Origin: a virus
Direction: 5' to 3' (one strand)
DNA length: 41,212 nucleotides
Virus record (IMG/VR): IMGVR_UViG_3300049217_000163
Location: 1 to 41,212 of that record
Position numbers and translations under genes: made by a program. This document shows positions 11,576 through 39,060 of the stretch, one piece after another. Below the pieces are notes generated by a model, which searched no databases, was not told the origin of the DNA, and saw only the letters and a program-made list of their open reading frames with translations. How positions within the stretch are numbered: the first letter of the stretch is position 1; every line of letters begins with the position of its first letter.

Positions 11576-12631
11576 TTATAAGAATATTTCCCAGCGCTTT
11601 TTGCCACAATCCCAAATGCGGTATAAGCCTAGAGAAAGAGCCATTTCGTTCTCGGTATTTCCAACGGCACCCTTTTTTAAGAGGTTCTTTTTTTGACAGG
11701 ATTGTTTGGAAATCCTTTTTTCTCTTAAAACATAAGAGTAATCAGGTGGAAGAGTTTCTGTTAATTCAAATCCAGTTTTTTCATAAACATTACCTTCAGA
11801 CCAACGATTGTCGGACCAAGAGATTAGCCTGGAGTAACCCTTTTCTTTAGCATACCCAAGAAGTGCTTTAAGAAGTTTGGAAGATCCTCCAGAAACGGAT
11901 ATATTGGATTTGAAGGCCAATCTATTAAGGACAAAGAGACTTCCGTGTCCCTGACGATGATGTTTATTGCCGGTCGTAATACCAACCAGTTCATTGTTGT
12001 GGTACAGACCAAAAGCTACCTCAAAGAGGGGAGATCCCTGAATGTGGGTGTCATCTAAAAAAGCCACTGCCTCTGGTTTAGGGACAACTCTAACTTCAGT
12101 TTTTCTTCCCATTACTTTTAATTCATTTTTATTAATAGCGGACAAAAGGAAATTCTTAACTTGATCTTGCCTTTCGAGCCATTCATCTTCGAATATAGTT
12201 ATGAGACGGATACCTTTTTCATTACAGAGCCTCATTTTTTTTAAATGATAATTTTTCTCCCTATATTCTTCCGAATGCCAATAAAGACCACAGTACTCTA
12301 TAGCAAGATTTAAAGAGGGGATAAATATGTCTAATTCGTAAGGTTCAATGATTTCGTGAGAATTACCTACGGCATCTGAGTAAAAAGATTTTACAAAATC
12401 AAAAATCTCCTTTTCTGCTCTGGAAGTACCACTATTAGTGCATTTTGGACATCGATGGCCTTTTCTGTTATTATACCCCTTAAATGATTGGTAACTCATA
12501 TTAAGAATGTGTTTGTTAGGACAAATAAGGTGCATTTTTGTTTTGTTATTAACATAGGTATCTGTAATTAGTGCATACCCTAAGCTTTCTACTTTTAACC
12601 TTATATTTTTTATGTCTACTCTTCTACTCAT
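11576..12631 (-). CDS. Homing-type endonuclease: Vsr-like nuclease fused to GNAT/Mom-like domain, 351 aa
   Basis: Residues 1-70 form a recognition module with CPNKH and CPKC Cys pairs. A Vsr/PD-(D/E)XK-like nuclease core follows (YELDIFIPSLNLAIEYCGLY, then WHSEEY; IRLITIFEDEW). The second half (about 190-300: FGLYHNNELVG, VLNRLAFK, SGGSSKLLKALLGYAKEKGY, SWSDNRW) has the pattern of a GNAT-like fold. A paralogue on the opposite strand is at 35654. It is freestanding between a terminator and the next unit's promoter motif. It has its own TTGACT-N17-TAAAAT promoter whose -10 lies 10 bases from the ATG. Confidence 0.7.
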   Translation of the reverse strand: MSRRVDIKNIRLKVESLGYALITDTYVNNKTKMHLICPNKHILNMSYQSFKGYNNRKGHRCPKCTNSGTSRAEKEIFDFVKSFYSDAVGNSHEIIEPYELDIFIPSLNLAIEYCGLYWHSEEYREKNYHLKKMRLCNEKGIRLITIFEDEWLERQDQVKNFLLSAINKNELKVMGRKTEVRVVPKPEAVAFLDDTHIQGSPLFEVAFGLYHNNELVGITTGNKHHRQGHGSLFVLNRLAFKSNISVSGGSSKLLKALLGYAKEKGYSRLISWSDNRWSEGNVYEKTGFELTETLPPDYSYVLREKRISKQSCQKKNLLKKGAVGNTENEMALSLGLYRIWDCGKKRWEIFL

Positions 12632-13245: not shown

Positions 13246-15402
13246 TTATGCTGACTGTTGCACATTACTTATTGAAAATGTAATAGGAATGAAATATAGA
13301 GCCGTCGACAAATATATATTACATGAGATGGTCATAGTAGGTGCCGCAATCATTACTTTGGCGTTATTAAAGCCTAATGGAACTCCATTGCTTGGCGCAA
13401 TAAGTTTCAATTGCATATAACTAGCCATTTTTTGCGTTAAAAACGCTGCAGCAGAGGCTGCGGACACATCTGCTAGGGATTGACCAACAAATGCGTTTGT
13501 AAAACTCGATTTCAAATCGATGGTAATGATATCAGCATCATACACCGCTTGAATAGAATTGAACACGAAGTTTGTATCAACAGAATAGGTTGTTTGGTCT
13601 GAGACCCACTTCGGTCCACCAACATCTGTCCACAACGGTAACAACCCGGCGTCCAACGCTTCCGAAGTATCCCCTGGGTCACCAGAGTTATATCCTGTAG
13701 GATCGATCACGCTAATAATATTTGCGTATTTATTACAAATACTCTTATAGAAACCGCCCAATTGCATCCCAGCAGCGATAACAGCAGCGTACCAAGGCTG
13801 GAACTGAGTCACAACACCTAACGAATTAACCTGAGTCACATTTTGGAACGTCAAAGAACAACGGTAGCTACCAAGTCCTTGAGCAACTGCTTGTGATTGA
13901 GCGAATGTTCCATTGTTTGATAAGATACAAACGCGGTTTTTGTCCAGGCTCGGATCGCTATACTCAAGACAATGGCTCTTCATTAAAGCGTCAATTGCTG
14001 CGATGGTATAGGTAGACGAAGGATCGGTCAAGCCAGCCAAAATATCTGCGCTAGCATTTTGTGAAAACAAAGGAACGATGATGTTGCAGGTAATAGCACC
14101 CAAATCGCCAACAGCATTTACGATATCTGCTGCTAACGTTCCGCCTCTGGTTCCACCAGCCAAATAGGCTGGAGCTGCCATTGGAGCAGGAAGCCCCGCC
14201 ACTGCGGTTGGACTAAAAGAAAGAAGTCTGCTGGTAGCCATTTCTTGAATGAAATTGTACAAACTAGCCTTGATTCTTCCTGGCTCATCACTCGCTGCGG
14301 TCGAACAAATTCCCACTGCCGTGACAGAGTCAAGTGCCGAACATGGTAATTGATTTGCGGAAGGAACTACAGTACAAGAATACCCAACATGAGAAGCGAT
14401 AAACCCAGCAAGCAGTCCGATAGTGGAATACTGGCTCATGTTGATGCTCAGGTTAGATCCGCTTCCACCAGTAACAGTGGTGGTAAGCATACTAGTACTT
14501 TGATTGATGGTAATACTAGCGCTAGTTCCCTGATATCCGATCATCAAAGCGATAGATGCTTCCATTGACAGGGTTTCAGAAATACCACGCTGAATATTAG
14601 AATCTAAGACTTCGATGGAAGGCTCTTGAGACGAAAAATTCAGTCCAGCGGCCAATCCCAAAGCGGCCAAATCGCCCATGGTGGAATCGATAAGTTCAAA
14701 AGACTTACCCCATCCGTTATTCCAGGCATTGGCGTCTGCGTTAATGGTCAAAGCAATCGAATTCATTGCCGAACCAGCGGAAGCAGTAATTCCAGAAGGG
14801 AGGAGGAGATTGAGTTCAATAACCAATGCCGCAACGTTCGCAGGACTTCCAGTGATTGGACCTACAAGGGTGGACGCTCCGCCATTGATACGGATGTTAA
14901 ATTGAATCCCGTTAAGAGCAGAACCGAATGATGGAATGGTCAGGCCTTGAAGTGACGGAGCAACTTCTGCATCAACAGAGAGTACTTGGTACTGATCTTG
15001 GTTACCGAGAACCCCGTAATTAAGGTCCGAAAACGTTCCGTAAGTTGCTGGGGTTGAATTTAAAACCACAGCGGAAGCGATGGTTCCAGAATTCGTTTTC
15101 CAGACATAAATTTGATTGGCCGTTCCAGTAATGTTTGGGTCATTGGACGGAACCGTCATTGCGGTAAATGCGTCTACGAGCTGACCACTGATAAAAATCT
15201 GAGTAACCTTATCAAGTTGGTCTGGAGTATACAAACTTTTTTGTATAGTCGTTTGTTCATAGCTTGGGCCGCCATCTGCTTCGCCCATAAGAACTGCAAT
15301 ACCAGAGGAAGAAACACCGGTAGGTTGCGTAAGAACTTGGTAATTAACGTAAGTTCCTGGGATGTTTGTTGAAACGTAAGGGGTTTGTAATCTTTGAGAC
15401 AT
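13246..15402 (-). CDS. Contractile tail sheath protein, 718 aa
   Basis: Hallmarks of a myovirus sheath are present. The N-terminal IPGTYVNYQVLTQPTGVSSS linker strand is the arm that interlocks subunits. It is followed by GIAVLMGEADGGP and a large insertion domain in the middle. The conserved C-terminal sheath core reads DTNFVFNSIQAVYDADIITI, then FVGQSLADVSAASAAAFLTQ, ending in a beta-strand tail. The gene precedes the tube gene in the canonical order. SD GGGAG precedes ATG 15402. The middle third (about 200-440) is longer than in compact sheaths such as P2 and may decorate the tail surface. Confidence 0.88.
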   Translation of the reverse strand: MSQRLQTPYVSTNIPGTYVNYQVLTQPTGVSSSGIAVLMGEADGGPSYEQTTIQKSLYTPDQLDKVTQIFISGQLVDAFTAMTVPSNDPNITGTANQIYVWKTNSGTIASAVVLNSTPATYGTFSDLNYGVLGNQDQYQVLSVDAEVAPSLQGLTIPSFGSALNGIQFNIRINGGASTLVGPITGSPANVAALVIELNLLLPSGITASAGSAMNSIALTINADANAWNNGWGKSFELIDSTMGDLAALGLAAGLNFSSQEPSIEVLDSNIQRGISETLSMEASIALMIGYQGTSASITINQSTSMLTTTVTGGSGSNLSINMSQYSTIGLLAGFIASHVGYSCTVVPSANQLPCSALDSVTAVGICSTAASDEPGRIKASLYNFIQEMATSRLLSFSPTAVAGLPAPMAAPAYLAGGTRGGTLAADIVNAVGDLGAITCNIIVPLFSQNASADILAGLTDPSSTYTIAAIDALMKSHCLEYSDPSLDKNRVCILSNNGTFAQSQAVAQGLGSYRCSLTFQNVTQVNSLGVVTQFQPWYAAVIAAGMQLGGFYKSICNKYANIISVIDPTGYNSGDPGDTSEALDAGLLPLWTDVGGPKWVSDQTTYSVDTNFVFNSIQAVYDADIITIDLKSSFTNAFVGQSLADVSAASAAAFLTQKMASYMQLKLIAPSNGVPLGFNNAKVMIAAPTMTISCNIYLSTALYFIPITFSISNVQQSA

Positions 15403-16956: not shown

Positions 16957-17991
16957 CTATTCCATGTCCTCTTCAGTGTCTGCTTCCGCTTCTTGTTCCG
17001 AAATGGTGTACCAAGTGGTGTCGTTTTGATGGGCCAAAGGAGTTTCCAAATTTGAGACTATACGAATTCCGCCCACAAAACCCTTCGGGTTAGATACCGT
17101 CTCTGCGGCCGAATTTTTACTACGTATAAGTGTCGACTCAATTTTCCTATGCAGATCTCTAGGCCAGCTTTGTTGAACTTTACTCGTTACGGTAACCTGT
17201 CTACAATAAATTTCTTCTCCGCCTGGATTTGAAAAATCGGCATTGAAAATATCGGTGCTACTTAAGTTAGTGATTTCTAATATACCGTTGTGTTCCATAA
17301 ACTCACGGTATCTAAGTAGGCCGAATATAACAATGGAGTGTAACCAGAGTAGAGTTTGAACGTCATTGGTGGCGCAGGTCAAGTTCCAGGTCTCTTGAAA
17401 GAAGCTTCTTCCTAAACGAGTTTGGAAATACCTATATTGAGGCACTACAGCCAGTTCACTAGCGTCCAATTCTAAATTTGGCTGGACAATAATATTTTGA
17501 CCGTCAATACTTAGCACTGGAGTACCAACCCCAGTTAGAGGGTTTAGCAATACCATACCGGCAGATACAGGCACGATATCTATGCCTTCAGGAACCTCTA
17601 CCGTACCAGTAGAAGGCTCAAAACCCACAGGGATAAACGGAGGAACAACGTAAGGAATTATTTTCTTAACTTCGGTAGGAGCTAGCCCGATAGTCTCGGT
17701 ATCAATGTCTCCAAGGGTTCTCAGTTCTTGTGCTTCCGTACTAGACCCCAGGGTGATAGCTATTGCTGGAAATTTTAATTTATCCTTAATAAACTGATGA
17801 AATACGTTGATATTATTAGTTTCAAACCATTCTATAGCCGCACGAACTTGTTTTTCTCCGTACCTGGTCTTGAGAAATGGATTGTGTGTAAAATCCCATA
17901 GAATATGTTGTAGTAACCAGGGATTTTCCTTAATATCCTGGATAGATTCTTCAAGTAAAACACGTAGATATACGTCTGTTTGAAATATCAT
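16957..17991 (-). CDS. Putative neck/tail-terminator region protein, 344 aa
   Basis: The protein begins with helical sequence (VYLRVLLEESIQDIKENPWL) and has a central AIAITLGSS strand. It then continues with VPQYRYFQTRLGRSFFQETW and NLTCATNDVQTLLWLHSIVI, a pattern like tail-terminator or tail-completion proteins that contain a 'W.l.I...s.v...W' helix. The C-terminus is acidic. It overlaps the gp10-like neck gene by 4 bases and precedes the sheath/tube genes, which is the usual place for a tail terminator. Assignment is from position and weak pattern. Confidence 0.45.
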   Translation of the reverse strand: MIFQTDVYLRVLLEESIQDIKENPWLLQHILWDFTHNPFLKTRYGEKQVRAAIEWFETNNINVFHQFIKDKLKFPAIAITLGSSTEAQELRTLGDIDTETIGLAPTEVKKIIPYVVPPFIPVGFEPSTGTVEVPEGIDIVPVSAGMVLLNPLTGVGTPVLSIDGQNIIVQPNLELDASELAVVPQYRYFQTRLGRSFFQETWNLTCATNDVQTLLWLHSIVIFGLLRYREFMEHNGILEITNLSSTDIFNADFSNPGGEEIYCRQVTVTSKVQQSWPRDLHRKIESTLIRSKNSAAETVSNPKGFVGGIRIVSNLETPLAHQNDTTWYTISEQEAEADTEEDME

Positions 17992-18866
17992 AATTTATCT
18001 CCCCATTTGGCAAAAATACCGGGAAGAATTTTATTATAAAACTCTTGTTCGGCCCATTCGGCGGATTTGTCCATAAACTTCTTTGCAGTAAATCCGGGAT
18101 GAATAAATTTTTCTTTAGGAGATACGCCCGTTTCTGGATTGGGCTTGGGATTCTCGGAAGCGGTTCTGAAAGTCATCCAAGAACGGCTAACTTTTGCTTT
18201 ACCGCCTTTAGTAAGTTTTGCATTACCTTGAGCGTCTTTTTCTACCGCTTGATAGACCCTTAATTTATCTAAGGGATTGTGTGACCAACTAGACTTAGCT
18301 TTAGATCCTGTGAAATTGAATTCATGAAGTAAACCTTCTTTAGGTTTTCCATGCTTATCCGTTTCAATTCCTGCCCAAGGAATGGTGGGTAGTCCATTAC
18401 TCTTCCTGATCTTATTCTGCGCCTTCAGTTCAAACTTTATACGATCTGTTAGATTTTTCTCATAACCGGTTTGAGTAGATGGCGCCTTTGAGTGCTCAAA
18501 AGGAACAACTAAATAACGATATCCATCTTTAGAAGTTTTGGTGGATTTTGATTTAAAAAGCCACTTATCTGTTTTTTGATCTGTTCCAGGCTCAATTCCT
18601 TCTTCAATCCAATAAGCAGATCCAGAAAGAGTTATTACATGCACGTTGGAGGATATAGTGTCCAACCTAATATTGTGCTCATTCTCTTTTCCTCTAAAAA
18701 TCTGTTTTAAACTAGGGCTAAGTTCTGCGTCCGCCAGTTCCAGAATGTGTTTTTGTGTAGCAATAGCAAGGTCTCCCACGGACTTCGAAAGTTGCTTTTT
18801 AGCATCTTCGACAGAGTCTTTGCAGGCGTCCAGGATATCTTTTGTGTTAATATTGATTTTGAGCAT
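17988..18866 (-). CDS. HK97 gp10-like neck/tail completion protein, 292 aa
   Basis: The N-terminal half has the KSVGDLAIATQKHILELADA helix and a beta region with SGSAYWIEEGIEPG. The C-terminus ends with FIHPGFTAKKFMDKSAEWAE, then helix. The 'HPGF...F' strand followed by a long amphipathic helix is the signature I associate with HK97-gp10/neck-type proteins. These join head to tail in siphoviruses and myoviruses. It is longer than typical gp10 (about 120-180 aa) because of a central insertion. It precedes the tail operon, consistent with a neck role. Confidence 0.6.
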   Translation of the reverse strand: MLKININTKDILDACKDSVEDAKKQLSKSVGDLAIATQKHILELADAELSPSLKQIFRGKENEHNIRLDTISSNVHVITLSGSAYWIEEGIEPGTDQKTDKWLFKSKSTKTSKDGYRYLVVPFEHSKAPSTQTGYEKNLTDRIKFELKAQNKIRKSNGLPTIPWAGIETDKHGKPKEGLLHEFNFTGSKAKSSWSHNPLDKLRVYQAVEKDAQGNAKLTKGGKAKVSRSWMTFRTASENPKPNPETGVSPKEKFIHPGFTAKKFMDKSAEWAEQEFYNKILPGIFAKWGDKL

Positions 18867-18875
18867 ATTAGCCCT

Positions 18876-19098
18876 TTACTGGGACTCCCCTGGGCCTTTA
18901 ACACGTCCAACTTTCATATCGATAAAACGAATTTTTCCCTGCAAATCCGAGACCTTGCGTTGACCCTTTTCATTGGTAGCGCCCACAGGAAGTGGATCTT
19001 TCGCTAAATGCGGTGTAGGATGCTTGCTCGAAAGTTTTTTGGCTGATCCTATGGCGCCCCCAGGTTGAGCCGGAGGCTTACTGCTGTGGGGCTTTTTG
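18876..19098 (-). CDS. Out-of-frame 73-residue extension, candidate +1 frameshift product
   Basis: A frame in +1 register to the end of the 595-residue gene stays open from the overlap to TAA 18876-18878. It ends 9 bases before the next start, normal operon spacing. The product reads KPHSSKPPAQPGGAIGSAKK, with later VSDLQGKIRFIDMKVGRVKG, and looks like genuine basic protein. It has no plausible ATG, GTG or TTG near a Shine-Dalgarno. Instead an internal AGGAGGGG (19109-19102) lies just before CAAAAAG (19098-19092), where the 595-residue frame could slip +1 from AAA to AAG. A sequence error is the alternative. Confidence 0.5.
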
Positions 19099-20865
19099 CG
19101 ACCCCTCCTGAGGAGCCGCAGGCTTTGCTTTATCGTATCCGCAGTTAGGACAAGATTCCATATCAGATTCGTCAGAACCGCCTTCGGAAGGCATTTCTTG
19201 CGAATTTGGAGCCTCTTCCGGGCTTTCTCCTTGGCCTTCGATTTCGTTAACTTCTTGTTCTGGTTGTGATTGATCAATACCTGCCAAACTACAAAGCTCA
19301 ATCATGCTTCTGAGCAACATAATGCAAGCGTCATGCAATTCTGGTGCCTGTGCCTTAGCCTTATCCAAAATTTGTTTCTGGCCCTTGAACGCGTCCAGCG
19401 CTTGCCCAACCATGTCAATAACTTTTTCTCTTTGGATACTATCTGCGTGTGAATCTAATCCATCCCTTAAAACTTCGTCCAGGTTTGGATTTCCTTCATC
19501 CTCTTCTTGATCGTCCTCATACAAGCCCATATCACCTTGCTTTTGGTTATAATCTTCGGGCCGGCTAATGCCATTTGGGTCCATTCCTTCGGGATCTACA
19601 TCTCCAGATTCCATATCCGCTGCGTTATCTAAATGTTGATCTAGAATGTCTTCGATGCTTTGGCCTTCATCAGCACTTCCTTGGTTGCCGCCGTCGCCGC
19701 CTTCACCAATAGTATTTGTGTAGTCCGAAGCATTTTCAATATGTTGGTCTAAAACGTCTTCCATGGGCTGATCTTGAGAATGTTCGTCACAGCGACACCC
19801 AGGACAGTGGTCCGATTCTTGCTCGATAGGAGTTTCCTGCTCAGTTCCTTCTGTTTCCATGTCTTGGGCCATAGCATTTTCGGCTTCATCTGTAGTAGAA
19901 TCTTCTTGCACCATATCCGCTTGCGGCTCTTCTTTTCCGTGATGCATATATTTTAAATCGCCGGGTCTATTGTCACTTGTTGCTTGAGCCATACTTTCAG
20001 GTGCTCCGTCTTCAGGCTGAGCATATTCTGCTTGGCCGTGGTAATATTTAGAAACAGGTTTTTTGTCTTCTGGCTCTTGCTCGCCTGGGTTGGAAGGTAC
20101 ATTGTTCATTGCCCGGTTACTTTCCGGCACATCTCCGGACGTAGCCTCAGAAACAGGAGGCTTCGGAGTTAGATTTGGCTTAGCAATAACAGGAGGGGTT
20201 AGATCCTCTTCACGATAGCTTTCGCCACGAACTTCTTTATCGCTATTTTTATAACCAGAGTCATATTGGTGATTATTGTCGTAAACAGGAGGATCATCTC
20301 TATCGATACCATCGCTAGCGACTTCGTTAGCGTACCCACCTTGAGATTCTTGATGTGGATTACCTTCTCTGTTACCGTCTTCGCCAGATTGCAAACCAAC
20401 ATTACTTTGTTTTAAACCTACTTCACCGACTTCTGATTCGGATTCTTCTTGATTTCTAGCTTCTTGAACATTTTGCGAATGTTGTTCTGAAGATTCGCTA
20501 TATTTAACAATTTTATTTTTACCAGTCTCTTTTGCTTCCAACAAAGCCTTGGCAGCTTCGCTTGGCTTAGAGCCATATCCAATAGAGAGCGTAGCGCCTA
20601 CCATGTACTCATAGTCTTTTCTAAGTTGTTCTAGAAGCTCTACAAATTCAGAGGGGGCTTCGAATAAACCTTCATCTCCACCAAAACTAACTACTTTGCC
20701 ACCGTTAGATTCCACAAAGTCTCTAATCATTTCATTGGCGTGGGTAATAGATCCAGAAACTTCACTTATACTATCTACATTATCAGATAAAAGAGCTTGA
20801 GCATGGCGCCGACCTACATTGTCTCCGTCCGTAGCAAAATACATGAGATTTTTAGTGTTTATCAT
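19078..20865 (-). CDS. mCpol/GGDEF-type (CRISPR-polymerase-like) domain fused to acidic disordered tail, 595 aa
   Basis: Residues 6-122 have the motifs of the small polymerase/cyclase palm fold. These are MYFATDGDNVGRRH (metal-binding Asp13/Asp15), a helix with SGSITHANEMI, VVSFGGDEGLF (GGDE at 62-65), and GATLSIGYGSKPSEAAKALL then AKETGKNKIV. The latter is the classic 'SIGIG...EA..AL..AK..GKN' end of mCpol and GGDEF domains. Members make cyclic or linear oligonucleotide signals; activity here is untested. The remaining 470 residues are acidic and disordered. They include CPGCRC and CPNCGYDK clusters and three LDQH/LDSH helices (about 365-490). The gene sits in the virion operon after a nuclease whose last codons supply its SD. 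Confidence 0.65.
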   Translation of the reverse strand: MINTKNLMYFATDGDNVGRRHAQALLSDNVDSISEVSGSITHANEMIRDFVESNGGKVVSFGGDEGLFEAPSEFVELLEQLRKDYEYMVGATLSIGYGSKPSEAAKALLEAKETGKNKIVKYSESSEQHSQNVQEARNQEESESEVGEVGLKQSNVGLQSGEDGNREGNPHQESQGGYANEVASDGIDRDDPPVYDNNHQYDSGYKNSDKEVRGESYREEDLTPPVIAKPNLTPKPPVSEATSGDVPESNRAMNNVPSNPGEQEPEDKKPVSKYYHGQAEYAQPEDGAPESMAQATSDNRPGDLKYMHHGKEEPQADMVQEDSTTDEAENAMAQDMETEGTEQETPIEQESDHCPGCRCDEHSQDQPMEDVLDQHIENASDYTNTIGEGGDGGNQGSADEGQSIEDILDQHLDNAADMESGDVDPEGMDPNGISRPEDYNQKQGDMGLYEDDQEEDEGNPNLDEVLRDGLDSHADSIQREKVIDMVGQALDAFKGQKQILDKAKAQAPELHDACIMLLRSMIELCSLAGIDQSQPEQEVNEIEGQGESPEEAPNSQEMPSEGGSDESDMESCPNCGYDKAKPAAPQEGSQKAPQQ

Positions 20866-21947
20866 AAAATTCCCATTTCTTTCAATTTCTTCTTATCCCA
20901 AAGTTCTGCTGTGGGATATTCCGTTTTAAACCAATCCCACTTAATTTTAGCTTCTGGTCTCATCCAACCCTTGATTTCAACCCAAACATCTTGTTCGACC
21001 AAATAGAGGTCCGGACGATAAGTTTTACCAGTAGGCATTTTAAAAGTTTTGGGTTGCCAATCAAAACTGATTTGTTTAGCGTTAAGATAGTCTACAACTT
21101 TAGCTTCCCAACTAGCTTGACATACAAGCTCTTCGTTAGTTTTCCAATGATATTTAACATGTTTATTGTTTGATTTTTTGGCGGCTTTTAAAGCAATTCC
21201 GGCATTTTGCGTTGCATGTCTAACGCCATACCTAATTTCGTTAGTATTAAGAGCCTTTTCTAATATTTCTTTATTTTTAAGAGGAGAATCTACGCCGTAT
21301 CTATCTAATAAGGTTTTCTTTTGTTTTTCTCTCCATTTATCGGGATGTCCTGTATGTTGCTGTATAACGGCCCTAGGAGTGGCAGGAAATTCGCCTAAAT
21401 CTTTATCTATAAAAATACATCTAGTTTTGAAGTCTATATAAGTTGATTCAAGTAATTCTACTTCGTCGCCGTGAACTTCTTTAAGTCTTAGTAAAACTTC
21501 TTGAATAGATAACCTTCTACTATCTATACTTTTTTGTTTTCCTCTATCAGGATGCCCATGCTCATGACATAATACATTAGCGGGCTTAGTCCACCATTCA
21601 CCAAAATCTTTGTCGATAAATTTAGCGTCTTCGTATAACCCACCATAAGTGGATTCGTCTAAAATGACCAAATCATTGTGAATTTTTAATATTCTTTCTT
21701 TAATTTCTGGCATAGAAAATTTTATTTTATTTCTAACTTTTTGTATACCACGAAGTTTATGTCCATGTCCTTTAGTGACTGACGCAACAATCGCCCACCA
21801 TTCACCAAAATCTTTGTCAATAAAACGAGCTTCAGAATTGGTTCCCTTGTATGTAGCTTTATCCATTCTTACTACATCGCCATGAACTTTTTCAATTCTA
21901 AACTCTATTGCTTCTACAGAAAGCTTGTTGTGGGCTATTCTAGGCAT
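20862..21947 (-). CDS. Homing-type endonuclease: repeat recognition domain plus PD-(D/E)XK nuclease, 361 aa
   Basis: The N-terminal 190 residues contain three repeats of about 60 aa (pattern: I..R..KVHGD.V.LDESTY....A.FIDKDFGEWW....V...GHP.R), a different recognition array from the zinc-finger one at 7004. A LLDRYGVDSPLKNKEILEKA linker follows. The nuclease domain is nearly the same as the one at 7004: E in SWEAKVVDYLN, D in YRPDLYLVE, VWVEIKG, ending EMGIL. It starts inside the end of the 309-residue gene and ends overlapping the mCpol-like gene, whose SD (GGGA) lies in its final codons. No separate promoter is visible. Confidence 0.7.
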   Translation of the reverse strand: MPRIAHNKLSVEAIEFRIEKVHGDVVRMDKATYKGTNSEARFIDKDFGEWWAIVASVTKGHGHKLRGIQKVRNKIKFSMPEIKERILKIHNDLVILDESTYGGLYEDAKFIDKDFGEWWTKPANVLCHEHGHPDRGKQKSIDSRRLSIQEVLLRLKEVHGDEVELLESTYIDFKTRCIFIDKDLGEFPATPRAVIQQHTGHPDKWREKQKKTLLDRYGVDSPLKNKEILEKALNTNEIRYGVRHATQNAGIALKAAKKSNNKHVKYHWKTNEELVCQASWEAKVVDYLNAKQISFDWQPKTFKMPTGKTYRPDLYLVEQDVWVEIKGWMRPEAKIKWDWFKTEYPTAELWDKKKLKEMGIL

Positions 21948-22869
21948 TCTTTCTCCTCAATACTTCCAGCAACATTTCCAGGTTTTCCGCGTCCCATCCA
22001 CGCCCAGCTCTAACCTTAATTCCACCCTCAGATTTTTTAATATAAAGTTTTTTATCATCCGAACCAAAACAAATGCAACCAGAATAAGCGCCCGCAGAAA
22101 AAATGACATTTCCGCAATCTGGGCACGATATTTGTTCCGATTTTTGCATTTGAATAAAATGCTCTTTTTTGCCAAGTTTCTTTTTGCGACTCTCGACGAA
22201 ATCAGAAAGAGGAAGCTTCTTTTTTGGGATAAGTTTTATTACTTTAGGTTCATCTATAAATTCGGGTTCTTTTTTATCAGCAATTTGAACATTCTTTTTC
22301 TTTTCTTTGGCGAATTCTTCGGTAAGTCTAGCCATAAGAAGTTGTTGAATAGCATCTTTTTGTTGCATCTTGCCGTCAACAACTTTGTTAACCAAAGAAT
22401 GTAAGTTAAGGCGCTCGTCTATGATACGGTTAATTTCAGCGTGTTTGTCTGGAGAAATTGTCTTTTCTTGTTCCAGATCTTCAAAATTATATAATTCCAA
22501 AACGGTCATCAAGACGAGACCAATTCCAGGAAGCGAACGATGAAGAAAATCGTTTATTTTTACATTTTTCTGAAATACTTGACCGCTGTAAGAATCTCTT
22601 TCTAGTTTGGACACCCTAATAAAAGTATCTTCTTGTCCAGGAATATAGATTTCTTTGATATCGTCAATTTGCATTGTTGATAGTTCACGGACCAAAAGAT
22701 TTAGTAATGTTCTAGGAACGATTTGAAGGCCCTGAAACAAGTCGTTTGTATCAGTGATAGTTCGAGTGCCTTGTTTATAAACTTCTGATTTTTTTAAAGA
22801 ATTACCTAGCGACTCTAAAAAGTCACTGCCCAATGTTTTATTTAAAAAGGACTCAGCATTCTTTTTCAT
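21940..22869 (-). CDS. Virion-operon protein with C-terminal zinc ribbon, 309 aa
   Basis: A helical N-terminus (ESFLNKTLGSDFLESLGNSL) is followed by a region rich in hydrophobic helices (TLLNLLVRELSTMQIDDIKE, LPGIGLVLMTVLELYNFEDL). A Lys/Glu-rich linker then leads to a zinc ribbon (CPDCGNVIFSAG, then GCICFG near 265-285). The family is not recognised. The position between small virion genes and the mCpol-like protein suggests a head or neck assembly factor. The Cys knuckles are C-x2-C and C-x1-C, so zinc binding is likely though slightly non-canonical. Confidence 0.55.
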   Translation of the reverse strand: MKKNAESFLNKTLGSDFLESLGNSLKKSEVYKQGTRTITDTNDLFQGLQIVPRTLLNLLVRELSTMQIDDIKEIYIPGQEDTFIRVSKLERDSYSGQVFQKNVKINDFLHRSLPGIGLVLMTVLELYNFEDLEQEKTISPDKHAEINRIIDERLNLHSLVNKVVDGKMQQKDAIQQLLMARLTEEFAKEKKKNVQIADKKEPEFIDEPKVIKLIPKKKLPLSDFVESRKKKLGKKEHFIQMQKSEQISCPDCGNVIFSAGAYSGCICFGSDDKKLYIKKSEGGIKVRAGRGWDAENLEMLLEVLRRKNA

Positions 22870-23478: not shown

Positions 23479-24438
23479 TCACGTGTCATCACAAAAATCT
23501 GTGGTCTCGACCTTTACCATACCATCTGGAACGTTAATCGTATCCAATGGAGCCTGAATCTGTCTATTTTGAACCACAGGATTCTGAGGTTTATTAAACT
23601 GATTTGAATTATTGATATTGTGGTACACGTATTCTCTAGTTACCTGGATAAAATATGGCATTCTTTCAGGTTTTCTAGAGAAACCCTCGGTAACATTGGT
23701 TATCCTAACTTCTCTAAGGATGCTAGTTATGTAGTAAAAAGCCCGGTAGAGGTACCTAACCGAATACGTGCGCCCCTCACCCGTTTCTGGGTCTATCCCT
23801 GGATTGGAGCCGCTTTCGTTCCATACTATATTCCCAAGATTACTTATCGTGAAATCTATGTTTTCTTGATACCTTACTCCTCTAGAGTCAACAATAGGGG
23901 CATCCATAACCCTAATAGGGAACATGGGGACGCCAGGACTGTCATAAGAGAACTGGAGCATTTCCTTGTTAACAACCAGATCATTGGCCTCAGGGTCGCA
24001 GTATAGCCTATCTCCCACAGCTAAATATATTCTTTTGCCTTCAGGCGTCTCAACACAGCTACAATCTCCAATTGCAGGAGATTTATAGGGATCGTAAAAT
24101 CTAGGCATCACCAAATTACCTTGAGATGCGTCAATAACTGCGCCTTCAGACGGCCTACGTTGATCTTTTTGATTGCCAGTTAGAACGGCGGTAAATTTAC
24201 CGGCCAAATTATATATATAGCCGTTACTGGTCATTACATCTGTTTCTTGTCTTCTGTAGTCGCCCTTATCATTTAGCCCTATAGGAGAAATTGTGGATTT
24301 CCAATGATAGAAAGTTGTGCCAAGCCCTTGGGTAAAGGCATCTGCCCGATTTAAATCAAAAGATTGTTCAATATAGGGAGCACCAAACGGTATGGTCTCG
24401 ACTTGCTCGCCTACTGGACTTTTATTCGAATTTTCCAT
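23479..24438 (-). CDS. Putative virion structural protein, 319 aa
   Basis: A mixed alpha/beta protein with RYQENIDFTISNLGNIVWNE and YSVRYLYRAFYYITSILREV in its second half. The latter resembles baseplate/neck proteins that contain a 'vsv.Y.y...Y.V...LRE.R' strand pair. I cannot name the family. The C-terminus (VKVETTDFCDDT) is acidic. It overlaps the upstream 116-residue gene by 17 bases, and the gene at 22878 follows 112 bases later behind its own promoter motif. Confidence 0.55.
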   Translation of the reverse strand: MENSNKSPVGEQVETIPFGAPYIEQSFDLNRADAFTQGLGTTFYHWKSTISPIGLNDKGDYRRQETDVMTSNGYIYNLAGKFTAVLTGNQKDQRRPSEGAVIDASQGNLVMPRFYDPYKSPAIGDCSCVETPEGKRIYLAVGDRLYCDPEANDLVVNKEMLQFSYDSPGVPMFPIRVMDAPIVDSRGVRYQENIDFTISNLGNIVWNESGSNPGIDPETGEGRTYSVRYLYRAFYYITSILREVRITNVTEGFSRKPERMPYFIQVTREYVYHNINNSNQFNKPQNPVVQNRQIQAPLDTINVPDGMVKVETTDFCDDT

Positions 24439-24772
24439 TTAAGCACATCTCGGATATCTCTTGTAACTTGGTATCCATATTTTTATGTAGTAGCACCAAC
24501 TTACCTACTATATCATTGAATAGAAGTTCTTTGTTCAACTTCTTGATTTTACTGAATAATTTTATATTAGTGTTGTCGGCCAAACGAATGGTTATGGGTA
24601 GAGATTGTCCGTTTTTACAAATTTTTACAATTTCATCCAAGAATTTGGCAACCTTAGGACAGCTAGGTTCGCAATCTATCAGGACTTCTTTAGAGCCCCT
24701 CACCTGATCCTCAAAAGGAAGTTCAGGTTTATAGGACTGCTTTTCTTCGGATTTCAATATCTCTACGCACAT
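24422..24772 (-). CDS. Hypothetical protein, 116 aa
   Basis: Unrecognised helical protein with four Cys (MCVEIL, CEPSCPK, ICKNG, EMCLNG) without a clear metal-site spacing. The C-terminal half (LLFNDIVGKLVLLHKNMDTK and on) is an amphipathic helix pair. It lies 4 bases downstream of the 160-residue gene and overlaps the 319-residue virion gene, so it is a coupled member of the same operon. Position suggests an assembly chaperone or small head protein. Confidence 0.55.
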   Translation of the reverse strand: MCVEILKSEEKQSYKPELPFEDQVRGSKEVLIDCEPSCPKVAKFLDEIVKICKNGQSLPITIRLADNTNIKLFSKIKKLNKELLFNDIVGKLVLLHKNMDTKLQEISEMCLNGKFE

Positions 24773-24776
24773 AGGT

Positions 24777-25259
24777 TTATTTGACCTTTATCTTCTTCAT
24801 TTTACAATCCAAAGCCTTTTCAGTCGTAGCCCCAGCCATGGCTTTAGCAAACTCCTTAGGAAATTTGAGTTCGTCGATTAACAAAGAGTCATCCTGAATT
24901 GAACTAGAAACAGATGCGACACTCATGTTGTTTTTGGTGATTTGGAATTCAATGCTATTTCCGGTTTGGATACTATAAATATCATGCCCGGATTTACGAA
25001 GATCGTTGGATAGAAAATGGGAATGCTGATCCACAACAGCGTCCTCAAACCCTTCGGATTTACACATTACTGGTTGAAAGTTAGAATGCGTTTTGGAGAC
25101 CGAATGGCGCACAATAGCAGGATGTGATCCGCCTGCGATAACTTTTCCTTTGTGAACGGCCATATAGAAGCCGCCTTTTGTGCGGATCATCTTAACTGGT
25201 TGTCCATCAAGAACTCCCGCGTCATCTACTTGGTCAATATCTGAAGCTTGTAGATTCAT
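24777..25259 (-). CDS. Hypothetical virion-operon protein, 160 aa
   Basis: The N-terminal half (VKMIRTKGGFYMAVHKGKVI, then AGGSHPAIVRHSVSK) is a beta-rich, KOW-like or SH3-like stretch. The C-terminal half (IEFQITKNNMSVASVSSSIQ, ELKFPKEFAKAMAGATTEKA) is beta then helix. No known family. It starts 2 bases after the stop of the 2H/lytic protein and precedes the 116-residue gene, so all three are probably translated together. Confidence 0.5.
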   Translation of the reverse strand: MNLQASDIDQVDDAGVLDGQPVKMIRTKGGFYMAVHKGKVIAGGSHPAIVRHSVSKTHSNFQPVMCKSEGFEDAVVDQHSHFLSNDLRKSGHDIYSIQTGNSIEFQITKNNMSVASVSSSIQDDSLLIDELKFPKEFAKAMAGATTEKALDCKMKKIKVK

Positions 25260-25261
25260 AA

Positions 25262-26530
25262 TTATTTCTCGCTTTCATAATAGTGCTTAAACTTTTGCAC
25301 GTAAGGGTGTGAACTAATGTCATGTTTTTGTTTTAACGCGCGATTTGTGCCAGAAATTCCTTGATTCCACGCGAAACTAATAGCCTCTGGATTATTTCCG
25401 AAATGATGTTCTAAGCGGCTTAAATGCTTATCAGCAATTAACTGCTCAAGTTTCGGGTTGTCTTGCATGTATCTGTGTAAGTTATCGCCCTGAAGTCTCA
25501 GGGCTTTCCCGTGCTGTCGTTTTAGGTCCGGGTTTAGACGAATAGTATCATGAATTACATCAGGCATTTCGGCAAATTTGCCCCATGCAGTACCTTGTGT
25601 CTTAGTTGGTTTATGATTCATGTTTTTGCCGCCACTACTCTCGACTTGGGATATAGCGTTTAGTAATTTTTCTCTAGAATAGCCGGGATGTTGAGCGGAG
25701 GAAACGTTAGGATGTAATGGTTGATGGCCTGGATTTTTTGCTTCGGTTGGCGTAGCAGAAGCAAGCGCTCCAGCCATAGCTCCAGCGGTAAGCATATTTT
25801 TAAGAGCACCTTTTTCTAATTCTTCTGATTTAGCCACATGTTTTGGTAAATGCTTACCCTTCGTAGCCGAATCCCATTCTTTAACAGCTTTTTCACCGCC
25901 CAAAGCTTCCTTACCTTCTGGAGAATGGCCCCATGCAGCTTGAGCTTGCGAAGACCACGGTTTAAGAAGTGGCTCGGTTTTTTCTACTTTAGGATTATAA
26001 GTTTGAAGTGTCTTGGGACCACGACGAAGTTCAGCCGACCCGAATTCAATTCCGGCATCGTGCGCAGTTTTATGACCTTTTGATTTTATTTCATCGTGGG
26101 TTTCTTTTGATACAGAAATGTGGGGATGAAATTCATAGTTTTCTTTGTGGCCCATGTGAGAAAACTTGTCGTGATGTTCTTTTAGTTTCTCCGCATGAGG
26201 TCCGTGAAGCTTTAGAACGTAAATATCGTCGCCTTCACGACTTTTAATTTTCGTAGGCTCTATTCCAACTTTTTTAGGATCGATATGCTGATGGTCCAGT
26301 TTAGAAGCAGCTTCGTGAGCATGTTCAGGCTTGTCCAATTCTTTATTGAAAAATTTAATAGAAGTATGATAAGGAATGTTATTATCAGAGCGTTTTTCAT
26401 GGCCCTTGATTTTAACGGGATGACCAAGGAGCAAGCCTGTTTCGGCTAAACGTGCATATTCTTGAGGATTTTCAGATTTTAAAATAGATTGTTCTATAAT
26501 TGTCTTTCTTAAATTTTTAAGGAAGCCCAT
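25262..26530 (-). CDS. Fusion protein: 2H-phosphoesterase-like domain plus lytic transglycosylase-like domain, 422 aa
   Basis: The N-terminal domain (about 30-175) has the two HxS/T motifs of the 2H phosphoesterase superfamily, H55-T-S-I in YHTSIKFF and H137-I-S-V in FHPHISV, with a basic, His-rich middle. Family members cut 2',5' or cyclic phosphodiesters; some phage anti-CBASS enzymes belong here. A hinge with an Ala-rich helix (NMLTAGAMAGALASA, about 245-260) leads to a lysozyme/SLT-like domain: ISQVESSGG with candidate Glu297, then GTAWGKFAEMP and FAWNQGISGT. This suggests a virion protein that digests peptidoglycan on entry. Its SD lies inside the upstream GIY-YIG gene. Confidence 0.6.
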   Translation of the reverse strand: MGFLKNLRKTIIEQSILKSENPQEYARLAETGLLLGHPVKIKGHEKRSDNNIPYHTSIKFFNKELDKPEHAHEAASKLDHQHIDPKKVGIEPTKIKSREGDDIYVLKLHGPHAEKLKEHHDKFSHMGHKENYEFHPHISVSKETHDEIKSKGHKTAHDAGIEFGSAELRRGPKTLQTYNPKVEKTEPLLKPWSSQAQAAWGHSPEGKEALGGEKAVKEWDSATKGKHLPKHVAKSEELEKGALKNMLTAGAMAGALASATPTEAKNPGHQPLHPNVSSAQHPGYSREKLLNAISQVESSGGKNMNHKPTKTQGTAWGKFAEMPDVIHDTIRLNPDLKRQHGKALRLQGDNLHRYMQDNPKLEQLIADKHLSRLEHHFGNNPEAISFAWNQGISGTNRALKQKHDISSHPYVQKFKHYYESEK

Positions 26531-27311
26531 CGGACACCTTCTTAAAAGTAAATCCCTTTACTGATTTTTGTTTGTTACTAAAAAAAAGAGAAATGCTCGA
26601 TATAGATACAGAGAGAATATTTGATGCTTCGGTATATGAACTAAAAATTTGTCCAGTTTCATTACATACTATTTTTATTTTATTATCCGGAATAACCAAA
26701 TTGGACCTATGTTTTGGTGAAAGTTTTCGTCCCTTTAACTTTTTGCTTATTTTGAGTCCTGATTCCTCAGTATGTTTTTTACCGAAAAAACCATTTTTTT
26801 CACCTTTTTGAGCCAAAGAAATTTTTTTCTTTGTTTCTTCTGAAAGCTTGATCCCTTTGTTTCTACCTTTTTGAGCCAATGACATCTTAATTTTTGTTTT
26901 TTGAGAGGTTACCTTACCCTTATGGGCTTTAGATACAGCCAATCTTTGGCTTTCTGTTACAATTCTGCCTTTTTTTGCTTTAGACATTTTCTGTTTAGAT
27001 ATTTCAGAGTGTTTGCCAAAGGAACCGCCGGAGAGCAAGTTATAACCATTGGGAGTCAACGTGTTGAATAGTTTAATATAATAGGTTTCTCTATGGTCTA
27101 ATTCGTTTTGATTGTTGGCGTAAGCGACAGGCTTAATTTTAAAATTTTCCAAGCCGTATTTTCTCATAGCACTATAGATAGCTGAACCATCTTGTTTCAT
27201 AAATGCGTTATATTTGTGCTCTTCCCATCGTTTATCAAGCATGCGCGTGGTTTGACCCACATACTTCTTTCCACTGATAGCACAGATAATGAGATAGACA
27301 ATCCCGTACAT
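26517..27311 (-). CDS. GIY-YIG homing endonuclease with NUMOD motifs, 264 aa
   Basis: The N-terminal GIY-YIG domain starts YGIVYLIICAISGKKYVGQT, with catalytic Tyr pair, Arg (DKRWEEH) and Glu (DHRETYYIKLFN). It is followed by repeated NUMOD3-type modules (SE..K.KMS.A.KGR; about 110-205) and a C-terminal NUMOD1-like helix-turn-helix (SSYTEASNILSVSISSISLF). I start at ATG 27311 with GGCGAG upstream; an in-frame TTG at 27326 is the alternative. It is inserted between two virion genes without intron features, and its 3' end contains the AAGGTG SD of the next gene. Confidence 0.85.
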   Translation of the reverse strand: MYGIVYLIICAISGKKYVGQTTRMLDKRWEEHKYNAFMKQDGSAIYSAMRKYGLENFKIKPVAYANNQNELDHRETYYIKLFNTLTPNGYNLLSGGSFGKHSEISKQKMSKAKKGRIVTESQRLAVSKAHKGKVTSQKTKIKMSLAQKGRNKGIKLSEETKKKISLAQKGEKNGFFGKKHTEESGLKISKKLKGRKLSPKHRSNLVIPDNKIKIVCNETGQIFSSYTEASNILSVSISSISLFFSNKQKSVKGFTFKKVSDGLP

Positions 27312-27312
27312 A

Positions 27313-28176
27313 TTAATACTCGCCAATTACGTATTTCTTAGCGAAAATATTTTTTATTTTACTAATCAGCTCATCACGATTCTTCGTAAGTTCTTCAATA
27401 CGAAGAGCAAATATGCGAGGTCCTAGAGTAGAACTTCCTTGACTAATTCCATCTTGGGATTGTGTTTGAGAAGTTGTGAAAAAAAACATCGCCAGTTGGC
27501 TAAGAATATTAATCGCGGCATTTGTTCCAATAAGTTGATTTACTATTACGGGAACTTGTCCTTCACGATTCGATAGACCGGACGAATAGGTCAGCTGCCA
27601 ATATCCAGGCACGTGTTGATTACCACCAGCGGCTCCCCAGATAGCGAGAAACGCGATTCCGGCCCCTTGATTGGTTACAGAAATAGGAGAACCTGTGGTA
27701 GAAGTGGCTCCAAAAGCCGCTAGAAGCGGTACTACATTAATAAAACCCATAGATGCTGAAGACATTTCTATCCACACACTTGGAACCTGAAAAATCACTT
27801 CATCATTAGAGGCGACAATAGCTAAAGATTCAATACTCATTATAGGAGAATGCCGAGGCTTCAAATGTATGAAACTTTTGTAAAGCGACCAGTCGAAGGC
27901 CATTTTGTCAACAAATTCTTCTCTTGTGATAGTTGTTCCAATTTGAACTTCAGTTTCATTCATCGCCATCATGATGCGATCTTTTAAATTTTCTGGCTTT
28001 AAAAGTTCTAGCGCCGACGGACCGAATAAATAAAAAGGAAGCCCCAACAAATACCTTACACGGAATAATTCTGGTGTGAGAAATGGTTCTGTACGGCGTA
28101 GAATTCCTGAAGATTCTATACAGTGAACCGGATACTGAGCGGTTTTGAAAGTTCTGCTCTGTGTAAAATCAGCCAT
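27313..28176 (-). CDS. Putative head-tail adaptor-type virion protein, 287 aa
   Basis: The N-terminal third has helices with FLTPELFRVRYLLGLPF and then IGTTITREEFVDKMAFDW, followed by SIESLAIVASNDEVIFQVPS. This layout of helices, then a beta 'wedge', is like head-tail connector/adaptor proteins. The middle is Gly/Ala/Ser-rich beta, and the C-terminus is a basic helix (ELTKNRDELISKIKNIFAKK). The start overlaps the upstream nuclease gene, which supplies AGGGG as SD. The connector role is a guess from pattern and operon. Confidence 0.4.
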   Translation of the reverse strand: MADFTQSRTFKTAQYPVHCIESSGILRRTEPFLTPELFRVRYLLGLPFYLFGPSALELLKPENLKDRIMMAMNETEVQIGTTITREEFVDKMAFDWSLYKSFIHLKPRHSPIMSIESLAIVASNDEVIFQVPSVWIEMSSASMGFINVVPLLAAFGATSTTGSPISVTNQGAGIAFLAIWGAAGGNQHVPGYWQLTYSSGLSNREGQVPVIVNQLIGTNAAINILSQLAMFFFTTSQTQSQDGISQGSSTLGPRIFALRIEELTKNRDELISKIKNIFAKKYVIGEY

Positions 28177-35604: not shown

Positions 35605-35640
35605 TTGACTATTCTAGTTGAACATAGTAATCTTTACCTT
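35605..35640 (+). promoter_or_regulatory. Overlapping sigma70-like promoter and AATCTTTACCTT motif
   Basis: TTGACT (35605-35610), a 17-base spacer and TAATCT (35628-35633). The -10 merges with AATCTTTACCTTG (35629-35641), so the nuclease-type promoter and the structural-unit motif occupy the same place here. It lies 14 bases before ATG 35654. Confidence 0.6.
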
Positions 35641-35653
35641 GAGGTTACCTGAT

Positions 35654-37203: not shown

Positions 37204-39060
37204 ATGGACTTCGCCTTACTTCCAGATAACAAAAAGGCTGAATTAGCCAAACTAATGCTTCAGCCCCTTAATTCCGCCCTAGAAATCAAGGACTGGGCTA
37301 AGGCATTCTTAGATCTAGAAATCCCCACAGAAAACACGGACCCTGATTCCACCTCTAATCCATTGGATTCTGCGTGGTACATTTACGAAACCTTCAAATA
37401 TAATATGGGCAACGTTAGGCCCGGCGCCATCATGATCTCGGCCCGTGAGTGCATGAAGACCATTATGGTCACCATCCTAGAGCTACTTCTTCTTATTCAC
37501 TTTCAACTAGAGATAGGGCACGCAGCGGCAATTGAATCCCAATCCTCTATCGCCCTCGGTTATATCGAAGGCTTCCTATTTAAAATAGGTCCCTTGTTAG
37601 AAGCTGCTGGCTGGGTTCCTCATTCAACTAATAAACGTGTTATTAAATTTAAGACCCCGCAAGGGAAAACACCCTTCATAAAAGTGGTTATTTGCAGTAG
37701 CAAGGGCATGAACGGGCTACATGTTTCCGCCCTTTTTCTTGACGAGTTGGATCTGGCAGATAAGGCGGCCCTTAAGGAGGGTCGTAATATTGTAGGATTT
37801 TCTAGAGGTATTTATGGGATGCAGGTTTATGTATCTTCCTATAAGTATTCGTTTGGTAATGTTGCAGAAGCCTTAGAAAAGGCAGACGATATGCATTATA
37901 AGGTTTTAAAATGGAACCTTATGGACTTAGCCGAACGATGTCCGTCAGAACGCCACAAACCCGATGGCCCCAAGCAAGACATGTACGTCACAAAGGTTCT
38001 GCCGTTAAAGAATTTAACTGCTACGGAGTATCTAGGTCTACCAGAAATTGAGCGGCCTAAATATGACCTAATCGAGCAGGCTTATGAGGGTTGTGTAAAA
38101 TGTCCCTTACTGCCGCTATGTAAAAAGAAACTTGCTGTAAAAGATGTTTCTGCTACTGGTGGATTTTACAAACCTATCTCATCAGTAATACAAAAATTTA
38201 GAGAGAATGATCCAGACATAGCCGAATCTCAGTTATTATGCCGTAGACCCGGCAGTGAAGGATTGGTTTACCCCAGATTCAGTAAAACCGGTAATGTTAT
38301 TACGATCAAAGAAGCCTACGAAACCTTAATGGGGGCTACCAAATTTCAAAATATTAGTGAAGCTACTTTATTATATGAGATGCAAAAGTTGGGGATCGAG
38401 TTTTATGCTGGCGTTGACTGGGGATTCACTCATGATTTCGTAATAGAAATTGTAGCTAAAATTCCTAACGGCGAGTGGTGGCTTATGGAAACCTACGCAT
38501 GTCCTGGATTAGAGTTCGACGACATGCTACAAACGGCAAAGAATTTTAGAGATAAATACAATCCCATGAAATGGTACTGTGATACCGCAATGCCTGCCTA
38601 CATCAAGTCCTTTAATAAAAACGGCATGAGATGTCAAGATTTTAAGAAGGATGTTTTGGGTGGTATAGCTGCTGTAAGATCTAAGATAGTCAATTCTAGT
38701 GGAAAAAGATCTCTTAAAATTATCGATAATGACAGTAATAAAAGAGCCGTCAACGCTATATCGAAGCACCGCTTTCAACTAGATAACCTTGGAAATGTGA
38801 CTCCGCAGCCAGCGGATGAAATGGGTGTGGCCGATATTGCAGACGCACTTCGTTACTTGGGCCAGAATTTGTGGCACGTTAAGGGAACCTATAAACCTTC
38901 TGTAGAATATACCGATGATCCTGGGAAAGTGGGGATGCCTAAAAATGCAACTCATGATGTGAATGAACAAATGAAAAATGAAATCGCTAAGCGTTTAGCC
39001 GGTTCTTCAGTTTATATCGGGACAAGTAAGAAGAAAGGAGGCTTTCATTTTGGAATGTAA
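37204..39060 (+). CDS. terL: Terminase large subunit, 618 aa
   Basis: Packaging ATPase/nuclease. The Walker A region is ISARECMKT (residues 78-86), where the second conserved Gly is Met. Walker B is ALFLDELD (about 176-183), and a coupling motif follows (YVSSYKY). A Cys cluster (CVKCPLLPLC, about 297-306) lies at the linker. The RuvC/RNase H-like nuclease has VDWGFTHDF (Asp405), CDTAMP and a final ADIADALRYL. Length and domain order are normal for TerL. ATG 37204 lies 12 bases after the inserted nuclease's stop, and the SD is weak (no GGAGG in range). No small subunit gene is adjacent. Confidence 0.88.
   Translation: MDFALLPDNKKAELAKLMLQPLNSALEIKDWAKAFLDLEIPTENTDPDSTSNPLDSAWYIYETFKYNMGNVRPGAIMISARECMKTIMVTILELLLLIHFQLEIGHAAAIESQSSIALGYIEGFLFKIGPLLEAAGWVPHSTNKRVIKFKTPQGKTPFIKVVICSSKGMNGLHVSALFLDELDLADKAALKEGRNIVGFSRGIYGMQVYVSSYKYSFGNVAEALEKADDMHYKVLKWNLMDLAERCPSERHKPDGPKQDMYVTKVLPLKNLTATEYLGLPEIERPKYDLIEQAYEGCVKCPLLPLCKKKLAVKDVSATGGFYKPISSVIQKFRENDPDIAESQLLCRRPGSEGLVYPRFSKTGNVITIKEAYETLMGATKFQNISEATLLYEMQKLGIEFYAGVDWGFTHDFVIEIVAKIPNGEWWLMETYACPGLEFDDMLQTAKNFRDKYNPMKWYCDTAMPAYIKSFNKNGMRCQDFKKDVLGGIAAVRSKIVNSSGKRSLKIIDNDSNKRAVNAISKHRFQLDNLGNVTPQPADEMGVADIADALRYLGQNLWHVKGTYKPSVEYTDDPGKVGMPKNATHDVNEQMKNEIAKRLAGSSVYIGTSKKKGGFHFGM

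Follow-up and report, generated by a model that had tools for sequence, protein, structure and literature searches.

An OptS-like mCpol domain with a conserved active site in the late operon of phages related to Myxococcus phage Mx1

The known ways in which phages counter cyclic-nucleotide immunity are to degrade the signal molecules or to sequester them, and in 2025 the Panoptes system was reportedly shown to punish phages for doing so. The Panoptes synthase, OptS, makes 2',3'-c-di-AMP without a trigger; its product keeps OptE/2TM-beta inactive, and both the sponge Acb2 and the degrading protein Acb1 release OptE/2TM-beta (PMC12657218, PMC12657230). In KpOptS, D6 and D57 bind metals and are required for activity (PMC12657218, PMC12657230), and Ser30 sets the preference for ATP (PMC12657230, PMC12657218). 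No report of a phage minimal CRISPR polymerase (mCpol) was found in the literature searched, and among 50,697 annotated phage records the only match was Myxococcus phage Mx1, in which the copy is dead.

The window analysed here is a 41-kb IMG/VR virus record (IMGVR_UViG_3300049217_000163, 41,212 nt). The first-pass annotation had assigned an mCpol domain to the ORF 19078-20865, placed the gene in a virion operon and described a fusion to a long acidic tail. All three points, a combination not expected in a phage, were borne out: the ORF is real, encodes 595 aa on the minus strand and matches PF18182 over its full length; a tail sheath and an SP10-type terminator are encoded nearby; and residues 131-595 consist of Asp and Glu to 24%, with a net charge of -81 (Table 1). 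The acidic linker of the window protein contains CPGC and CPNC only, and 4-7 CPYC-type (zinc-knuckle-like) repeats are seen in the linkers of three relatives (L037:7713-9281, L038:8454-10451 and L039:8915-10783). An AF2 model of the two C-terminal domains, TAIL and EXT, from one relative shows helices in TAIL, and with a mean pLDDT of only 63 it was too uncertain for a structure search.

Table 1. Positions of the mCpol gene, its parts and its neighbours in the window
Feature	Position	Strand	Basis or remark
Main-frame protein, 595 aa: mCpol domain, acidic linker and helical domain	19078..20865	-	ATG start
mCpol domain, residues 9-122	20500..20841	-	Pfam PF18182, AF2, Foldseek
Asp13, counterpart of KpOptS Asp6 and first of the two Asp that bind metal	20827..20829	-	49/50 phage relatives
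Ser37, aligned with KpOptS Ser30 (adenine selectivity)	20755..20757	-	Ser in 48/50 phage relatives
Asp64 in GGDE, counterpart of KpOptS Asp57 and second of the two Asp that bind metal	20674..20676	-	50/50
K112-x-x-G115-K116-N117 motif	20515..20532	-	Lys112, Gly115 and Lys116 invariant, 50/50; also in OptS
Acidic low-complexity linker with CxxC motifs, residues 131-459	19489..20475	-	sequence
TAIL, conserved helical domain, residues 460-541	19243..19488	-	HMM E=1e-44
AGGAGG, Shine-Dalgarno-like, upstream of the putative frameshift site	19104..19109	-	read directly
Putative frameshift motif GCC CCA CAG, just 5' of the TAA stop 19078-19080	19084..19092	-	8/8 same-offset relatives
EXT, conserved C-terminal extension domain, other frame	18876..19055	-	HMM E=1e-27
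Upstream virion-operon gene	21940..22869	-	stop overlaps mCpol start codon in 53 loci
Homing-endonuclease-type gene, inserted between 21940-22869 and the mCpol gene	20862..21947	-	PHROG endonuclease matches
Downstream virion-operon gene, phrog_16819	17988..18866	-	next gene in nearly all relatives
Tail terminator, SP10_terminator family	16957..17991	-	Pfam PF23932 E=3e-8
Tail sheath protein	13246..15402	-	phrog_279 E=6e-32
Large terminase, farther from the mCpol gene	37204..39060		
Homing-endonuclease-like genes	7004-8011, 11576-12631, 20862-21947, 26517-27326, 28169-29188, 31600-32460, 35618-37192		

The Pfam model PF18182 matches residues 9-122 from end to end (model positions 1-114 of 114, E=1.1e-19, 71.3 bits with a cut-off of 26.4). 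The Cas10-Cmr2 palm2 model gives a weak match of 23.1 bits, against a cut-off of 27, and the Pfam GGDEF model is absent among the matches of the 595-aa protein up to E=10. The motifs DGDNVGRRH, GGDE and SIGYG are present as originally quoted, together with KETGKNKIV. A sequence search of the PDB returned OptS entries as the only significant matches (E~2e-9 and 5e-9). The model that AlphaFold built for residues 1-136 from 23 phage sequences reached a mean pLDDT of 93.5, and its best structural matches fall within the palm-polymerase fold: the six best in a Foldseek search of the PDB are OptS/mCpol chains (TMt 0.83-0.86, rmsd 1.7-2.3, approx. 30% identity), with ATP analogues bound in two of the entries, and structures of GGDEF and Cas10 proteins rank after OptS with E-values of 1e-5 or weaker. 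In a tree of the domain, which is short and with its few columns and long branches serves only as support for the HMM and structural results, a branch of 96/95 separates the phage domains and OptS from Cas10 and GGDEF. In every feature that could be tested, the domain belongs to the mCpol family PF18182. A misannotation, with the match due to chance or to a remnant of a GGDEF or Cas10 protein, could draw on the weak Cas10 palm2 match and on the GGDE tetrapeptide, which is common to GGDEF enzymes; it is refuted by the full-length mCpol match, by the motifs kept in 50 non-redundant phage homologues and by OptS being the nearest structure, the position in the tree also speaks against it, and its probability is negligible.

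With the OptS/mCpol proteins of Panoptes (PF18182; PDB 9mnr, 9pd0 and 9nwn) the phage version shares the domain, the fold, the metal-binding Asp pair, the ATP-selecting Ser and the Lys/Gly positions, and like OptS it is predicted to be a constitutive cyclase. It differs in being encoded by a phage within a virion operon, in its fusion to approx. 470 acidic residues and a putatively frameshifted extension, in having GGD[EQN] around the second Asp where OptS has AADG, and in the lack of a 2TM-beta partner. The Cas10 palm of type III CRISPR systems has a similar fold, D...GGD[DE] chemistry and the weak HMM match mentioned above, but the latter remains below the Pfam cut-off, the two stand apart in the tree, and the phage mCpol is without HD, Csm4 and crRNA context; no Csm/Cmr neighbours were found near the mCpol gene of the window. 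GGDEF diguanylate cyclases, phage-encoded ones included, resemble the domain in the palm fold, the GGDE motif and a structural match at E~1e-5, but they differ in that their Pfam model does not match the phage protein, which has an adenine-type Ser, and in their separate position in the tree. In BFVD, phage GGDEF proteins are weaker structural matches to the phage mCpol. The entry A0A6J5L1I5 in the same database, an uncharacterised protein of 365 aa from an uncultured Caudovirales phage, has nearly the same predicted domain (TMq 0.87, E=1e-10), but only 22% identity to that of the window.

The 92 loci with an mCpol match were reduced to 51 domains at <90% identity, Mx1 included; the counts given here exclude Mx1 (n=50). 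The metal-binding Asp residues are not lost in the homologues, as they are kept in 49/50 and 50/50 of the non-redundant phage relatives, respectively. Neither of the results named in the first-pass annotation as refuting its assignment, a best match outside the palm fold or a loss of these Asp residues, was thus obtained. Invariant in all 50 domains are D15, G18, I40, D64, G96, K112, G115 and K116, and all of these columns but I40 are common to KpOptS too, as is D13. The second selectivity residue of KpOptS, Asn34, corresponds to Thr41 in the window protein and is variable among the phages. Values of dN/dS for mCpol were 0.07-0.15 in the diverged pairs with usable dS, which was saturated in many pairs. 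By analogy with other palm-fold proteins, K112, G115 and K116 may take part in NTP binding. The conservation and dN/dS patterns are those of an enzyme and not of a spacer. Judged from the residues that are kept, catalysis by the phage mCpol is well supported; the domain is very probably an active nucleotide cyclase, and with moderate confidence its product may be taken to be an adenine nucleotide.

Forty-six of the 50 domains occur in phages related to Mx1, which has a genome of 169.6 kb and a contractile tail (PMC10720576). Among annotated phages, Mx1 alone gives a full-length match to the window terminase and alone matches the sheath (38% identical to that of the window), and the likely major capsid protein of the window has 53% identity to the annotated one of Mx1. 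Relatives in IMG/VR, several of them of 140-177 kb, were located via the terminase, the mCpol domain and the terminator protein, the route being terminase first and then alignment; scans of viral contigs with single proteins or strict DNA patterns found no relatives. In nearly all of the relatives the gene order corresponds to 23479, 22878 and 21940 of the window, followed by the mCpol protein, EXT, 17988, 16957 and, further on, the sheath and the tube; two distant kin (L066 and L075) have partial synteny. The stop of the upstream gene overlaps the start codon of the mCpol gene by 4-14 nt in 53 loci, and co-translation of the mCpol gene with the late genes is therefore expected. Going by these sequences, phages have harboured this mCpol family for a long time, in a late operon and with an intact active site. 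The deep conservation within a phage family goes beyond the first-pass annotation, as do the putatively frameshifted extension, the loss from a single clade and the decayed copy in Mx1 described below. In the window, a homing-endonuclease-type gene parts the mCpol gene from 21940-22869; it is missing at the same place in most relatives.

Several further observations concern the window itself. Homing-endonuclease-like genes are unusually many among its structural genes. A TnpB-like protein at 39510-40948, recognised from its sequence, is encoded by two overlapping ORFs of 215 and 264 aa, the second with zinc-ribbon CxxC motifs. A transglycosylase-like protein (25262-26530) has a weak similarity (28%, E=1e-5) to a 1479-aa 'NUDIX hydrolase' of Mx1 (L034:5086-9525; positions 24404-28843 of the Mx1 record).

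The mCpol domain is gone from three relatives, L041 (= G013), L113 and L124, which retain TAIL and EXT, as relatives do throughout. These three form one clade on the tree of the terminator protein (SH-aLRT 99), so that a single loss explains the absence of the domain, and a clade that lives without it indicates that the mCpol module is not required to build the particle. The Mx1 protein WNM70340, annotated as a hypothetical protein of 468 aa, occupies the same syntenic place between the homologues of 21940-22869 and 17988-18866 and has an mCpol-like domain (HMM, E=2e-15), TAIL and EXT; it differs in the loss of catalytic residues (D13S, G18E, D64A, K112Q and K116G) and in an EXT that is in frame. 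Taken together, the loss from one clade and the decay in Mx1 make mCpol accessory.

Two functions proposed in the first-pass annotation lose ground with these results. Control of head assembly is disfavoured by the clade that manages with no mCpol domain. The second proposal, a non-enzymatic scaffold that binds nucleotides, would mean that the domain dimerises and binds ATP as part of a structural or assembly protein, such as a scaffold or a neck chaperone. The fusion to a conserved TAIL/EXT protein within the virion operon agrees with such a module, and the domain of Mx1 is still recognisable after the loss of its catalytic residues, so that a non-enzymatic use is possible there. However, drift would be expected in an inert module at the metal-binding Asp, at the Lys/Gly positions and at the adenine-selecting Ser, whereas the catalytic and NTP-binding positions are exactly the invariant ones, and the whole domain is missing from one clade; for these reasons a scaffold is improbable. 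The domain has the appearance of an adenylate cyclase that is active, though accessory, and not that of a core scaffold.

EXT, of approx. 55-60 aa, is encoded in a different frame, past the main ORF's stop codon, in 38 distinct relatives, the window among them, and is fused in frame in 15; its frame state switches repeatedly on the tree of the terminator protein. The comparison took in positions 18876-19092 of the window, where EXT and the putative frameshift motif lie, and the relatives L035-L040, L042-L071 and L101-L163. Where the offset is -1, each of the 30 relatives carries a classical slippery heptamer (C CCA AAR or A AAA AAN) in register and at <=42 nt from the stop, against a background of 2.2% in the same ORFs, 0/8 with the other offset and 0/15 of those in frame; the 30 rows share descent and are not 30 independent events. 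A start codon in the EXT frame is absent from most of the -1 cases. In this group, the sequence pattern strongly indicates a programmed frameshift. The window and seven relatives have an offset of +1 (or -2) and no X XXY YYZ slippery heptamer (0/8); the motif [GTC]CC CCA CA(G/A) is found shortly 5' of the stop in all eight, and CAG/AAG GAG is retained in most of them. A frameshift (+1 or -2) is likely in the window gene as well, and the protein probably continues into the other frame at 18876-19055. In some of the eight, the EXT frame holds candidate start codons, from which EXT might be initiated independently. The dN/dS of EXT is low in several close pairs (0.03-0.11) and is 0.37 between the window and L042. 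An association of in-frame EXT with a dead or missing mCpol was considered and dropped, as more genomes show in-frame EXT together with an intact mCpol.

The arrangement resembles the programmed frameshifts of phage tail-assembly chaperones (lambda gpG/gpGT, Mu) in that the 3' end of a late structural gene would be read in a second frame to add a C-terminal domain, and in the classical -1 heptamers of 30 relatives of the mCpol gene. It is unlike them in affecting another gene, which lies upstream of the terminator, sheath and tube genes and carries an enzyme domain, and in the different motif of the shift (+1 or -2) in the window. If the frameshift is real, its conservation in a gene of the neck region would count as a further finding.

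A search for Cap15_CD_rec/2TM-beta or SAVED (PF18153, PF18145) gave no match in 12 phage records, and the same search found both Cap15 and SAVED in the positive control, a Crocinitomix genome with a Panoptes operon (G016). Bacterial matches of the genome scan were mostly GGDEF and phylum-wide Pfam matches mostly Cas10, the only real chromosomal Panoptes operon being that of this Crocinitomix MAG (L080:6655-7641), where a 123-aa mCpol is followed by a 202-aa Cap15-type gene and the genome also holds a SAVED protein. In the 12 phage records, a paired effector gene of the 2TM-beta/Cap15-like (or CARF/SAVED-2TM) type is absent, the neighbours of mCpol are virion genes, and in place of a stand-alone synthase of approx. 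120 aa there is a 595-aa fusion. With no recognisable Cap15/2TM-beta or SAVED receptor, the phage locus is therefore not a Panoptes system. A phage-borne defence of the Panoptes type against rival phages, in favour of which one may cite that mCpol is the Panoptes synthase (PMC12657218), is largely refuted by the missing effector gene and is very unlikely. Searches for Tad2 and AcrIII-1 (cyclic-nucleotide sponge and ring nuclease families) found none in these phages, and Pfam scans of part of the genome of one relative (G003; L194-L201 of a 162-kb record) named no anti-CBASS gene. The same relative encodes an inorganic pyrophosphatase, a YspA-type SLOG protein, a chaperonin and calcineurin-like phosphoesterases.

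Our leading reading, which we hold tentatively and at not quite even odds, is that the neck/tail-operon protein is a di-adenylate cyclase of the OptS kind with an inhibitory signal directed at the host. Residues 1-122 would form a catalytically competent, constitutive mCpol di-adenylate cyclase. The gene would be translated late, together with the structural genes, the main product stopping at 19078, and a fraction of the ribosomes would shift frame and so probably add EXT, which may be a docking piece. The enzyme would act in the infected cell, perhaps carried there in the virion, a location that we infer, and would convert ATP to cyclic di-adenylate. The signal supplied by the phage would keep the membrane-breaking OptE/2TM-beta guards off during the shut-down of host expression. 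As no recognisable receptor for such a signal is found in the 12 phage records, its target is most likely the host. By analogy with Panoptes, a counter-defence role is plausible, though we would put it somewhat below an even chance. Several points weigh against the leading reading: the constant Asp and Lys residues would also suit a protein that binds ATP but does not cyclise it, the counterpart of the second selectivity residue Asn34 varies, without Tad2 or AcrIII-1 there is no sign that the phages deplete such signals themselves, and late expression would follow most immune triggers unless the protein were injected. A fuller scenario, in which an ancient phage family took mCpol and fused it to a neck-region protein, so that a soluble form in the cell and an EXT form, docked in the particle and delivered with the genome, would supply the inhibitory cyclic di-adenylate that silences Panoptes-type guards, is speculative and as a whole unlikely. 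If the leading reading is true, a phage that makes the signal would be the mirror image of the counters that destroy or sponge it.

An active cyclase might also signal for the phage's own programme, e.g. lysis timing, packaging control, superinfection exclusion or host physiology via c-di-AMP. The same conservation of the active site would be expected in that case, and the permanent linkage to neck and tail genes across great divergence would be unusual for anti-defence genes, which change fast and tend to move about. However, the domain-less clade and Mx1 with its dead copy manage without mCpol, and the 12 records contain no phage-encoded Cap15- or SAVED-type receptor, though one of an unfamiliar type may exist; we give this explanation a minor, though appreciable, share of the probability. 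The decoy signal proposed in the first-pass annotation stands in part: a signal that is made fits best, but 'decoy' is too specific. A competing nucleotide that fills the activating receptors of CBASS or type III CRISPR without switching them on is hard to reconcile with the adenine-selecting Ser in 48/50 domains, which argues for one fixed product, and to our knowledge 2',3'-c-di-AMP is not an antagonist of CBASS or type III receptors. On its side is the possible variation of mCpol products, VnOptS and KpOptS being different in base use (PMC12657218), and we regard such a decoy as quite unlikely. For testing the cyclase and its host-directed signal, the phage family offers natural active, decayed and domain-less versions of mCpol.

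The mCpol domain was also found in unrelated viral contigs (L072, L073/L074/L079, L077 and L078), so that its location beside virion genes has originated or persisted in at least two phage groups. The gene at L074:9932-10948 encodes 338 aa (461 aa in L072) and is situated three open frames upstream of a portal gene, the product of which has Hint and LAGLIDADG matches. In L077 (7691-13669), with a sheath-like gene nearby, a single ORF of 1992 aa has matches to mCpol, GGDEF, ATP-dependent DNA ligase, LigD primase-polymerase and LigD 3'-phosphoesterase, as well as a weak sigma-70-like match; two cyclase-type palms and an NHEJ-like set are thus present in one protein.
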